In this document: in pieces, positions 11,711-23,203 of the stretch
How the letters are laid out: every line of letters starts with the position of its first letter
Position numbering within the stretch: position 1 is the stretch's first letter
Assembly (NCBI GenBank): GCA_002887195.1
Contig: PJAB01000239.1
Span: 1-32,648 of the forward strand
Reading direction: 5' to 3'
From: Chrysochromulina parva
Taxonomy: Eukaryota; Haptophyta; Prymnesiales; Chrysochromulinaceae
Length of the DNA: 32,648 nt
Position numbers and translations under genes: made by a program
Notes under the pieces: generated by a model
Databases searched by the model: none
Told to the model about the DNA's origin: nothing
What the model saw: the letters and a program-made list of their open reading frames with translations, nothing else

Positions 11711-14239
11711 TCAGAGGCGCTCGAGCGTGTCGATGCCCAGCAGACCGAGCGAGGTCTTGAGCACCGACGCGGAGAGGCCGCACAACGCGAGGCGTGAGCG
11801 CTGCAGCTGCGCCGACTCGGCCTGCATCACCGGGCAGCTCTCGTAGAACTGGTTGAACTTGCCACTCAGCTCAAAGATGTATTCACAGAGCTTGGACGGG
11901 AGCAGCTCTGATTCGACCTCGCGTACCACGTCGGCCAGCTTGAGCAGGTGGCGCGCGAGCGCCAGCTCCGCGGGCGCATCGAGCATGATCTCGGACGCCT
12001 GCAGTCGCGCCGTGTCGAGAGCCCCTGCGCCGAGCTTCTCCGCCGCTCTCCGCTGGATGCCGCGAATGCGAGCGTACGCGTACAACATGAAGGGCGCCGT
12101 GTTGCCGTTGAGGGCGAGCATCTTGTCGTACTCGAACCGGTAGTTGCTGTTCCGGTTCATCGCGAGGTCCGCATACTTGACAGCACCGATGCCGACTGTG
12201 CGGCTCACGAGCTCGACAAAGTCGGCGTCCTCGGTGCGTCCCTCGGCCGTGATTCGGGAGCTCAAGTCGGTGTGCGCGCGTCGCACAGCTTCGGAGAGGA
12301 GGTCCATCAGCTTCACCGTCTCCCCCGAGCGCGTCTTGAACTTTTTGCCGTCCTCGCCAAGCACGAGGCCAAAGGGCACGTGCTCGAGGGAAACCGTCGA
12401 CGGTACGATGGAGGCGAGCCGTCCAATGGCAAACACCTGCCGAAAACGGACAAGGGACGTCATCAGGGAGGGGCGTCATCAGCCGGGCGCTATCAGCCTG
12501 GCGCCCTCAGCATGGCGTCATCAGCATGGCGTCATCAGCCTGGCGCCCTCAGCATGACGTCATCAGCCTGGCGTCATTAGCATGGCGTCATCAGCATGGC
12601 GTCATCAGCATGGCGTCATCAGCATGGCGTCATCAGCATGGCGTCATCAGCATGGCGTCATCAGCATGGCGTCATCAGCATGGCGTCATCAGCCTGGCGC
12701 CGTCAGCCTGGCGCCGTCAGCCTGGCAAACCCACCTGCTCGAAGTGTTGCGATTGGCCCGCGTCGGTCACATACAGGATTCGCTCCGCGCGCTCGTCTCC
12801 CACGCGGTGGGCGAGGGCGGCGAGGTCGGTCGTCGAGTACATGAAGCCACCATCCGACTTCTGGACGATCATCGGCTGAGGCTCGCCCTCGCGGTTGACG
12901 TACCCGTCGAGGAAGACGCACTGGGCTCCCTCACTCTCCCGCAGCAATGACGCCTCCCTAAGCGTCTCGATGACCCTGCCCAGCCTCGGATTGTAGAACG
13001 ATTCGCCACGTGTCTCGAGCCGCTTGTCGACGCCGAGCAAGCCGTACACCTCGTTGAAGGCCTTCTCGGACTGCGTGCAGAGCATGCGCCATGCTTTCAG
13101 AGAGTCCTCCGCGCCCGCCTGCAGCTTGACTACCTCCGCCCGGGCCGATGTCTGGAACTCCGCGTCCGCGTCAAAGCGAACCTGGGCACAGGCAACACAG
13201 TGGCACAGCAGAGGTCAAGCACAGGCCAATCAGAGGCCAATCAGTGACCGACCAGCGACCAATCAGCGACGATCGATCCCAAACAGTCGCAATCAGAGGC
13301 CAATCAGAGGCCAATCAGCGACGATCGATCCCAAACAGTCGCAATCACGCTGTGGTATGGGAGACGGCGTCCGTATCGTGAGTGTACCTTGGCCTCTTTA
13401 TAGAAGGTGACCAAGTCGGAGATGTCGAGCTCATCGGTGCCCGCGAGCGCGCCAGGTGCCTTATCCTTCAGGTGCAGGATCAGCATCCCAAACTGCGTGC
13501 CCCAATCCCCCACATGGTTCAGGCGCAGCACCGAATGGCCACGGAACTCGAGCACCTTGCTCAGAGAGTCGCCGATAATCGTAGAGCGAAGGTGGCCCAC
13601 GTGCATCTCCTTGGCGATGTTGGGCGAGGAGTAGTCGACGATCACGCGCTGCGTGGGCACCGCCAGCGGCACCGCGCAGCGCGCCTCGTCCGCGATCATC
13701 CGGCGCAGCTGCTCCTGCATGAATGGCATTCGAAGCTTGATGTTGAGGAAGCCCGGGCCTGCGATCTCGATCGGCTCGCACACGTCCTCGAGGCGCAGCC
13801 GCGCGACAATGTTCTCGGCGATGTCGCGCGGCTTCGACTTGAGCGACTTGCCAAGTGGCATCGCCACGTTGCACTGGTAGTCACCGAACTCGGGCCTCGA
13901 CGCCGGCACCAGCATCGGGTCAGCATCGGCGTACTCTGGCCCATAGGCCTCGACGAGCGCCGAACGCACTCGCTCGCTGAGCCACGCGGCCGTATCGAGT
14001 GTCGACTCGCCCGCATGGTACTGCGCCGTCGCGCCCTCGGCGTCCTTGACGAGTTTCGAAGGGCCGCAGTGAAGCCACCTCCGGCTGCGCCCGACGGCGC
14101 GCACGACCGCGGCACGGTTCTGCGCCGCTGCTCCGAGCGACGAGCTGAGGCCCATGCCACGCTGCTGCACGACGCGTGTCGCCGCACTCCGCGTCCATGG
14201 CATTATGAGGCTCATGACGAGGCTGATGCGCAGAGCCAT
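11711..14239 (-). CDS. RARS: Arginyl-tRNA synthetase, probably organelle-targeted or dual-targeted
   Basis: Exons 14239-13388, 13181-12735 and 12436-11711 join in phase 0 to give 674 residues. This class Ia synthetase charges tRNA-Arg. Residues 85-170 are the ArgRS N-terminal domain ([17 protein letters not shown]). The catalytic core has [17 protein letters not shown] with the HIGH signature at 213-216 and [13 protein letters not shown] at 241-253. Exon 2 gives [10 protein letters not shown] and [10 protein letters not shown], and continues to [10 protein letters not shown]. Exon 3 opens with VFAIGRL, then [27 protein letters not shown] at 465-471 stands for KMSKS. It ends with the helical DALR anticodon-binding domain. 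The first 60 residues are basic, Ser/Ala-rich and poor in acidic residues, like a mitochondrial or plastid transit peptide. No second, cytosolic copy is in this window. Both introns carry tandem repeats. Confidence 0.95.
12437..12734 (-). other. ArgRS intron 2 (298 nt)
   Basis: On the gene strand the donor is CAG|GTGGGT and the acceptor TTTTCGGCAG|GTGTTT. It lies between HFEQ and VFAIG, in phase 0. About 83 percent of its length is a 14-bp minisatellite. Confidence 0.9.
12472..12719 (+). repeat. 14-bp minisatellite inside the ArgRS intron
   Basis: Seventeen complete 14-bp units (12482-12719) plus a partial one at 12472. The main form is GCATGGCGTCATCA, with eight consecutive identical copies at 12580-12691. 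Variants cluster at both ends (GCCTGGCGCCCTCA, GCCTGGCGCCGTCA), and one unit at 12552 makes a TGACGTCA palindrome. Homogenised centre with diverged edges is typical of slippage or unequal exchange. Confidence 0.95.
13182..13387 (-). other. ArgRS intron 1 (206 nt)
   Basis: The donor AAG|GTACAC follows TFYKEAK and the acceptor CCTGTGCCCAG precedes VRFDADAEF, phase 0. The residues joined across it match the conserved ArgRS order. Confidence 0.9.
13259..13347 (+). repeat. 52-bp tandem repeat inside ArgRS intron 1
   Basis: A 37-bp block starting CCAATCAGCGACGATCGATC occurs at 13259-13295 and 13311-13347. Between and before the copies are several AGGCCAATCAG units. Confidence 0.9.
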
Positions 14240-14482: not shown

Positions 14483-15136
14483 ATGCCCGTCCTGCTCGGG
14501 TCCGACATGTCTAGCCTCGGGGCATCCCTCTTGCGTGGACCCTGGCCGTCCCCTTCAACACTTCAGGCTAGTGCACTCTGGAGCGACCAGACTACCGTCA
14601 TCTATGCCATTCGGCGCATGGGATGACCCTTGTGCCGGAGGACCGCAGCTCAACTGACGTCGCTGCGACCTCAGTTCGAGGCGGCGGGTGTTAAGCTGAC
14701 CGTGCTGTCCGGCACAGAGAACGGCGCAGCTGACTTCGTTCGGGAAGTCTGGAAGGGTGGAGAGCTCTACATCGACGAGCAAGAGCAGTTCAAGAAGGCG
14801 ATTCACGGCGGAACTACCGTATCCGCTATCTCACTGTCCTTGTTTAATCCATGGTTGCTCAGGACCATGCTCTCCCTTGGTCGTCAAGTCGGTGCGTACA
14901 ATGGCGACGTGTCCGACAAGAAAACCCAAGTCCTCGGTGGTACGATGGTCATCAAGAATGGCAAGGCGATTTATGTGCACAAGGAGACTGCGTCCTTTAA
15001 CAGTGGTGATGCGAACGATTTGCTCTTCGCTGCCCTTGGCGGGAACTCCGCGCCCACGCCGGCCCCCACGCTTATCGCATCGGAGGTCGTATGCGATGGA
15101 GATGTCTGTGGGCGCCCACCCAAACGCTCCAACTAA
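14483..15136 (+). CDS. SELENOU: SelU/peroxiredoxin-like 2 protein, candidate selenoprotein with UxxC motif
   Basis: Reading through one TGA (14624-14626) gives 217 residues in a single frame with no intron. Upstream of it is LWSDQTTVIYAIRRMG and directly after it PLCRRTAAQLTSLRPQF, so codon 48 stands exactly where PRXL2/SelU/FAM213 proteins have the first Cys of their CxxC motif, giving UPLC. The rest fits this thioredoxin-fold AhpC/TSA-like family: AAGVKLTVLSG, WKGGELYIDEQEQFKKA, VLGGTMVIKNGKAIYVHKE and NDLLFAAL. These proteins reduce disulfides or peroxides. The length of about 200-230 residues is normal. SelU is an established selenoprotein family with Cys versions in mammals. ATG 14483 is the last good start before the domain; the frame is open further upstream. 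The gene is divergent from ArgRS (243 bp apart). I found no convincing SECIS by eye. Confidence 0.8.
14624..14626 (+). other. In-frame TGA, proposed selenocysteine codon (Sec48)
   Basis: Context GGATGACCC, with coding sequence on both sides in the same frame. It lies three codons before the resolving Cys (TGC at 14633), forming a U-P-L-C redox motif. Confidence 0.8.
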
Positions 15137-15839
15137 CCGACCAAGAACGTCTACAGGAATGAACGCACCTCGCACCAGCGCGTGCGCGCGTGTGCATCAT
15201 TCATCAGGAAAGTCTCGTCGTGGGTCCTCGACGTGTTCGCTTGGCAGCATGACGGCCACTCCCAAAACTGCGTCGTCGACGCGCCAAGGGATTTGGCACG
15301 ATAAATCAGCTCAAGCGGCACGTGTGGGATTCTGAGTGCGTCAGTGCGAGCGGCGACGGACCGACGTGGTCCTCCGCGCCGCGCGCCGGGACCTCGCCAT
15401 GCGTGTGCTACAGTCAGTAGGGAAGGTCAGAGATGGCCCACTTCTGACGTGAGTCTAGCCGCCCCTGGCTCAGGAGGTTCGACACCTCTCGGCACATGTA
15501 ACGATTATGTGGCATTGACTAACGATAATGCTTAATGGTCGACTATACCGTATACGCCGCGGCGGATATGGCTCCGTATCGTCGCGTATGCTAGGTACGC
15601 CGGCCGCCCTCGCACCGGCGGGGCGCCGGCTACCCGGTCGTAACCTTCTAACCCCAGGTCCCCACTACCCCACCTTACACCCCTCCCCGCCGCCCGCGCG
15701 CGCCCCTCGCCTGAAGACTCACCGACCCACCTGCTCCCACTCGATGCACGATGGCGCGTGCGGGCCGCCCGCACCGCGAAACGCCTAAACGCCACGTGTC
15801 TGTCCGACGAGGGGGTGCGCGCTGCCGTTGCACTACGCA
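15137..15839. other. Intergenic region between convergent genes; must hold any SECIS
   Basis: 703 bp between the SelU-like stop and the channel stop on the other strand. Hairpins visible: GAATGA...TCATTC with ACGCAC/GTGTGC inside (about 15157-15205), GGTCC...GGACC (about 15368-15394) and GTCAGA...TCTGAC (15426-15448). An ATGA followed after 11 nt by AAAA lies at 15249-15267 and recalls the 5' half of a SECIS core, but the matching second strand is not convincing. No gene seen. Confidence 0.5.
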
Positions 15840-22240: not shown

Positions 22241-23203
22241 ATGTTTTCTTGGACATTGCTCACGCTCCTCGTGCGTGTGAGCAACGGTCTAACCATTGTT
22301 GTCGCGGCTGCAAATGGCAAGGTCGGCCGTCATGTCCTCGCAGCTCTTGCTGGGAAAGACAGTCTTACCATCGTTCCGCTCGTGCGGTCAACATCAAGGC
22401 TGCGTGCCGAGCTGGAGCGCCTGGACCTTTCTGCGTCGCTTTGCGATGCGATGGTTCGCGATGCGATAGAATGCGACTACACGGATACCGATGCCGTCTC
22501 CGCCGCTTTCTCCAAAATCCGCCCGGGTCTGATTAGCTTCAACGAGCTGCGACTCTTCCTCGCCACCGGCAATGGACCGCGGCAGGCAGAGGCAGAGTGC
22601 AACGTGCTGCAGGCAGCGCGGCGAGTGGGAGTGACCTACGTCGTGAAGCTCTCGACGGCAACGCAGGTGCTGGAGATGGAGAGCGGCCCGTATCAAGCGC
22701 ACCGGCAGGTTGAGGCCGCGCTGCAACAGGCCGAATCGCTTTGCTACACCGTGCTGCGCCCTAACATCTTCATGCAGATGACCGCCGCGCCGCTCATCGG
22801 CATTGGCGCGGCGCTCGCTCACACAGATGCGTGCGTGCATCCCTTTGCGGACACGCCCATCTCGATGGTCGATGCCCGCGACGTGGGCGCCGTGGCAGCG
22901 ACCCTGCTGAGCGCACGAGAGCCCCGAGAGCGGAATGCCCAAATTTTGGAGCTCACCGGCCCCAAAGCGGTGACCTACCGTGAGCTCGCGCAGTGCCTCT
23001 CGAGCGTGCGACCGCGGCCGGTGTCATGCGAGCCAGTCTCCTTGGAGGAGCACGTGTCGGCGCCGTCACTGCGCGCCTTCCTCGGGACTCTCTCGCGCTG
23101 CTCGGCGACTTCGACGACCATCGAGGAGTGTCTTGGCCGCCCTGCCACACCGCTTGCGGAATTCGTACTACGCCAAGCCGCTGAGTTTCAGCCGGCCATT
23201 TAG
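22241..23203 (+). CDS. NmrA-like NAD(P)-binding Rossmann protein (atypical SDR)
   Basis: 320 residues. The dinucleotide-binding loop reads TIVVAAANGKVGRHVLAAL (18-36), a variant of GxxGxxG. It is followed by VRSTSRL, a position that in NmrA/QorB-type proteins contacts NADPH. Further family blocks are VVKLSTATQV, CYTVLRPNIFMQM and the SMVDARDVGAVAATLL-QILELTGPKAVTYRELA segment seen in quinone oxidoreductase (QorB) and NmrA-like regulators. The canonical SDR YxxxK is not evident, which is usual for atypical SDRs. The first 16 residues (MFSWTLLTLLVRVSNG) are hydrophobic and could be a short signal peptide, as for proteins entering a secondary plastid or the ER. Reductase activity is likely but the substrate cannot be told. 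Confidence 0.8.
   Translation: MFSWTLLTLLVRVSNGLTIVVAAANGKVGRHVLAALAGKDSLTIVPLVRSTSRLRAELERLDLSASLCDAMVRDAIECDYTDTDAVSAAFSKIRPGLISFNELRLFLATGNGPRQAEAECNVLQAARRVGVTYVVKLSTATQVLEMESGPYQAHRQVEAALQQAESLCYTVLRPNIFMQMTAAPLIGIGAALAHTDACVHPFADTPISMVDARDVGAVAATLLSAREPRERNAQILELTGPKAVTYRELAQCLSSVRPRPVSCEPVSLEEHVSAPSLRAFLGTLSRCSATSTTIEECLGRPATPLAEFVLRQAAEFQPAI

Follow-up and report, generated by a model that had tools for sequence, protein, structure and literature searches.

A photosynthetic alga, Chrysochromulina parva, very probably reads a stop signal as selenocysteine (Sec) and so places this residue at the active site of a small protein of the antioxidant type. The gene lies in the window, the whole stretch of 32,648 nucleotides analysed here, which is contig C239 of a 45 Mb genome of 2199 contigs. 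We hold with high confidence that its product belongs to the eukaryotic selenoproteins of the SelU/PRXL2 kind, broadly defined, that UGA 14624 is translated as Sec by tRNA-Sec with the aid of a SECIS hairpin, and that Sec48 and Cys51 form the redox centre. The frame, its homology, the cysteines aligned with the codon, the hairpin, the tRNA-Sec and SepSecS genes of the same genome and the clade of the protein have been computed, and from them we infer that Sec is inserted in the cell. This kind of gene is already known; the part that merits specialist attention is a clade with a cysteine-bearing tail. The features discussed are as follows.

14483..15136, + strand: coding sequence of the SelU-like selenoprotein, ending in TAA; 217 residues, Sec48 predicted (translation, PF13911, N-terminal database pieces)
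14624..14626, + strand: TGA, codon 48, the first position of UxxC and probably translated as Sec (Cys aligned in 9us9 and P0087; six pieces end at residue 47)
14633..14635, + strand: TGC, codon 51, Cys of UxxC and presumed resolving residue (opposite Cys47 of human prostamide/PGF synthase)
15092..15109, + strand: residues 204-209, the cysteine-bearing C-terminal tail CDGDVC (48 of the 56 clade rows have Cys in this tail)
15225..15330, + strand: SECIS-like hairpin in the presumed 3' UTR (AUGA at 15249, apical AAAA from 15264, GA at 15300)

Between ATG 14483 and TAA 15134-15136 the frame is open bar one in-frame TGA at codon 48, and the read-through product reads YAIRRMG-U-PLCRRTAAQLTSL around it; the translation agrees with the original prediction, which had described a frame broken solely by TGA 14624 and had given the flanking residues as we find them. 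Judged by local base composition, the 169 codons past the TGA would stay open with a probability of about 0.005. The product matches PF13911 (AhpC-TSA_2 / PRXL2) with an E value of 4.7e-10 and 40.3 bits against a curated cut-off of 27. This match spans residues 57-168 and codon 48 lies just N-terminal of it, so that a stop at 14624 would cost the whole domain, as had been foreseen. The in-frame ORF extends upstream of the ATG as far back as 14261, within the gap that separates this ATG from an arginyl-tRNA synthetase ORF of divergent orientation. ATG 14483 is backed as the start by the N-terminal database pieces P0010-P0012, whose agreement with the window sets in at about RAIMPVLLGS and is lost upstream. 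The neighbouring ORF (13304-14239, minus strand) corresponds to the N-terminal part of the synthetase and is separated from the SelU-like gene by about 240 nt.

The residue that belongs at the TGA is indicated by those relatives that can be aligned across the codon. Every one of them has Cys at this position, namely P0087 and human prostamide/PGF synthase (PGFS, 9us9) for the window gene, and P0023 for a second SelU-type gene described below. PGFS, of which the C44S/C47S mutant has also been solved (PDB 9usa), aligned over residues 8-167 with an E value of 6.1e-12, gap-free near the motif, and places Cys44 and Cys47 opposite window residues 48 and 51. P0087 is a full-length relative that covers window residues 12-201, with 89% of the query aligned and an identity of 41%; its sequence runs YAIRRMGCPLCRR, such that YAIRRMG-C-PLCRR stands opposite YAIRRMG-U-PLCRR. 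P0016 places a C opposite Sec only through an unrelated 5' stretch and was left out of the count. The original prediction had put the TGA on the first Cys of the family CxxC and had named homologues with Cys or Sec at residue 48 as the check; Cys44 of PGFS and the Cys of P0087 fall exactly there.

Other database entries break at this codon. A profile search returned 59 proteins, of which P0087 alone covers codon 48 while the other 58, including the window's own P0065, start at residue 50 or later. P0002, P0003, P0041 and P0063 start exactly at residue 50, and six N-terminal pieces (P0007-P0012) stop exactly at residue 47, although truncation at the codon, like starts later than residue 50, may also stem from introns, contig ends or start choice. 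It had been predicted that annotation would split the gene, and pieces ending at residue 47 and others (P0002, P0003) beginning at 50 are what such splitting leaves behind. Gene callers split such genes in two, and since only one of the 59 matches spans the codon, a group of algal selenoproteins has probably been recorded as truncated, mostly nameless proteins. The relatives P0038, P0051 and P0069 from MMETSP, a transcriptome source, have ORFs that start past the codon, at residues 58, 61 and 61, respectively; P0069 is attributed to the haptophyte Calcidiscus leptoporus. These starts are as expected if the mature mRNA keeps the stop, and a 5'-truncated transcript would look alike. They bear on the best-surviving alternative, itself very unlikely, in which the TGA lies within a small intron and splicing leaves a protein devoid of the motif. 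Ten frame-keeping GT-AG pairs of 78-177 nt that span the TGA do exist mechanically, but splicing at any of them would remove 26 or more residues from a motif block that is gap-free in 9us9 and P0087, and the MMETSP relatives likewise begin past the codon.

The genome holds a second SelU-type selenoprotein gene on the minus strand of contig C68 (1222-1809), with a TGA at residue 46, a site aligned with the window TGA, in the context VRRLG-U-QLCREEALELSSL. A SECIS candidate lies 85 nt past its terminal stop. That stop is itself TGA, and UGA would therefore carry two meanings in one mRNA. The encoded protein matches a SelU1-like row, P0035, with 61 bits compared to 37 bits for the window protein. 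Three relatives of this second gene, P0027, P0028 and P0029, end in CGPKGC or CGPSGC, another C-terminal Cys pair. The second gene also weighs upon the reading of the window gene as a pseudogene or sequencing error with the TGA as a lesion, which we consider even less probable than an intron. TGA is a single base change away from a Cys codon. Yet the break recurs at this codon in near-identical relatives from different contigs, with P0007-P0012 stopping at residue 47 and P0002 and P0003 starting at 50; the C68 gene shares the TGA at the equivalent site, and the remaining frame is open and conserved.

The means of inserting Sec appear to be present in this genome, which contains a tRNA-Sec with anticodon TCA (70.7 bits) and a SepSecS (TIGR03531, 516 bits). 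The GTPase that matches selB best among 21 scores 181.5 and thus stays below the cut-off of 242. A search of the genome for selD (TIGR00476) found none, the sole AIRS match being PurM-like; with tRNA-Sec and SepSecS in place, this may reflect an assembly gap or a divergent or split selenophosphate synthetase. An inner TGA occurs in 4/4 Rdx, 3/3 Sep15_SelM and 8/11 GPx matches (contigs C845, C1751, C8, C467, C1145, C1125 and C664, and eight GPx places), that is in 15 of 18 matches in three families, and the genome looks rich in selenoproteins. The same 15 matches are what speaks for TGA as a general sense codon of the nuclear genome, a reading to which we give next to no credence. An inner TGA is found in only 1/58 LHC and 0/21 GTPase matches, which argues that TGA is no general sense codon here; in the 14 displayed loci (of 15) it is confined to what we take to be CxxU or NVASxU-type GPx sites, and in several of these selenoprotein-family genes it is also the plausible terminal stop. 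The sole LHC match with an inner TGA (C1675:2019-2600) may owe it to a lesion, an error or something else. The LHC matches mark the genome as that of a photosynthetic alga; for the one LHC protein compared, the top PDB hits are LHCI chains of 9vfj, followed by chains named light-harvesting or FCPI, and these names together with P0069 suggest haptophyte affinity. Just as negligible is a true stop at 14624 followed by a restart, at TTG 14630 or a later ATG, that yields a shorter separate protein: gene callers do leave the gene in this form (P0002, P0003), but the conserved N-terminal half and the motif, which P0087 has in one chain, would be wasted. We reject this reading together with the intron, the lesion and the general reassignment.

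Decoding of UGA 14624 as Sec calls for a SECIS element, and a candidate hairpin of the AUGA-AA-GA type is found past the stop codon (15249-15301). Its AUGA at 15249 is located 625 nt past the TGA and, counted from the leading T of the TAA stop, 115 nt downstream. Helix II pairs GGCCACUCCC with GGGAUUUGGC; the apical region begins with AAAA and contains one more short stem, and the hairpin also has CGA, whose GA is at 15300, and a long helix I. The segment 15225-15330 folds with -45.9 kcal/mol (z -4.0), a stability equalled by none of 200 shuffles. On our own SECIS score it reaches -23.7; when the downstream kilobase is shuffled with its dinucleotides preserved, 2 of 300 shuffles attain this value. 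The sequence pattern also applied to the hairpin was drawn up with the candidate already in view, and an Rfam search did not detect a SECIS. Over both strands of the whole window seven candidates score -20 or better, three of them of the AUGA type, and a GUGA candidate at 22822 on the minus strand outscores the hairpin with -25.4. By this scoring, and with Rfam negative, the hairpin qualifies as a candidate element.

The position of the hairpin can be compared with that in other genes. The scan took in 15 TGA-bearing loci, leaving out the TGA-bearing GPx match on C1929, for which there is no locus. With a line at -21, drawn after the scores were known, 12/15 have a candidate in the downstream 1 kb, compared to 1/15 in antisense (L005) and 1/15 upstream (L006); among loci devoid of TGA, 1/4 (L020) also reaches this line. 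L006 has no downstream candidate, L012 and L019 have weak ones, and in L011 the candidate precedes the next in-frame stop. Where the place is unambiguous and the candidate scores -17.8 or better, the AUGA of other genes lies 43-303 nt past the stop, a range that brackets the 115 nt of the window.

Mechanistically, tRNA-Sec guided by the hairpin would decode UGA 14624, and the resulting Sec48 would pair with Cys51 in a UxxC redox centre carried by a thioredoxin-like fold. The attack on a peroxide or other oxidised substrate would come from Sec48, Cys51 would resolve the intermediate as a selenenylsulfide, and a Cys of the flexible C-terminal tail may relay the oxidation to a cellular reductant. 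The peroxiredoxin-like fold of the model suggests peroxides as the substrate; PGFS is reported, in PMC3473315, to reduce prostamide H2.

The tail sets the window-type proteins apart. Across 56 rows, with the motif excluded, Cys accounts for 2 of 6441 body residues but for 71 of 1413 tail residues, and 48 of the 56 carry at least one tail Cys. This count excludes the near-copies P0002, P0004 and P0065, with which it becomes 51/59, and one of 57 rows lacks the core end; the rows are related and mostly miss the N-terminal part, and therefore do not form an independent sample. C68-type rows have a tail Cys in 5/17, with 12 Cys among 2219 body residues, and four animal-like rows have none in the tail. 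The C68-type figure is 5 rather than 6 because the last 'Cys' of P0013 is a terminal TGA read as a residue; alignments A1, A2, A4 and A5 and the model include P0013 with this extra last letter. The distribution suggests that the tail Cys is a single additional thiol retained to serve the Sec centre, as a resolving or shuttle residue, although it may instead serve lipid attachment or metal binding. We tentatively raise the possibility, which we regard as rather doubtful, that these proteins constitute an undescribed algal SelU-like subfamily whose body is almost devoid of Cys and whose flexible Cys tail supplies the Sec site, from within the protein, with a thiol for resolution or electron shuttling. 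Among the titles, abstract openings and passages that wider literature searches returned, we noticed none that deals with a C-terminal Cys in proteins of this kind. This clade lends itself to testing directly whether a Cys in the tail can serve a Sec active site.

In the tree, which omits P0007-P0012, P0088-P0091, rows shorter than 118 aa, P0016, P0032, P0033, P0056 and P0082, the window protein falls into a separate clade with support 100/100, apart from the C68 type and the SelU1-like rows; a haptophyte sequence is among its members. A motif common to the latter two groups and found in the present analysis, G[ND]xxGEG, occurs in 0/49 window-type rows and in 21/21 others, and the window protein does not have it. 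The original designation as SelU type therefore stands in the broad SelU/PRXL2 sense (PF13911), whereas the tree places the protein outside the clade with the SelU1-type motif. PGFS is the best structural match of the protein model (Foldseek, VIA-align), and UPLC, as a UxxC, is predicted to sit on a Trx-like fold closest to PRXL2. On sequence grounds the protein is well supported as belonging to a known family, the broadly defined SelU-like (PRXL2) proteins.

The typical peroxiredoxin active site follows the TxxC rule. Peroxiredoxins (PrxQ/Bcp, Prx5) share the fold of the window protein's model, yet where they have Thr three residues before the active residue, the window protein has Arg45. Parts of PMC2398784 give TxxU for Prx and list SelU among the eukaryotic selenoproteins of ocean metagenomes; SelU in algae is likewise on record in sections of PMC7539508, SelU1-3 are covered in portions of PMC3473315 and PMC3316567, and an excerpt of PMC13235717 deals with selenite and reactive oxygen in E. 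huxleyi, while the passages of PMC13188914 have nothing under SelL or SelU.

A likeness to SelL is seen in NCBIfam NF040769 ('SelL-related redox protein'), which the window protein matches with 32.8 bits, far under the cut-off of 120, and which 31 of the 37 rows of alignment A4 match. SelL, according to passages of PMC3473315, has two Sec, whereas the window protein has a single TGA and TGC at codon 51, hence presumably one Sec and one Cys. AhpC_b of Thalassiosira oceanica, described in parts of PMC7539508, is also an AhpC/TSA-type selenoprotein with UxxC. Its homologues are given there as solely prokaryotic, whereas no relatives of the window gene were found in the prokaryote contigs scanned, a distinction drawn from these occurrences; the viral contigs scanned yielded none either. 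Closest are the SelU/PRXL2 proteins themselves (SelU1, SelU2 and SelU3, the last being prostamide/PGF synthase, and algal SELENOU), from which the window clade is separate in its position in the tree, in its lack of G[ND]xxGEG and in its tail Cys.
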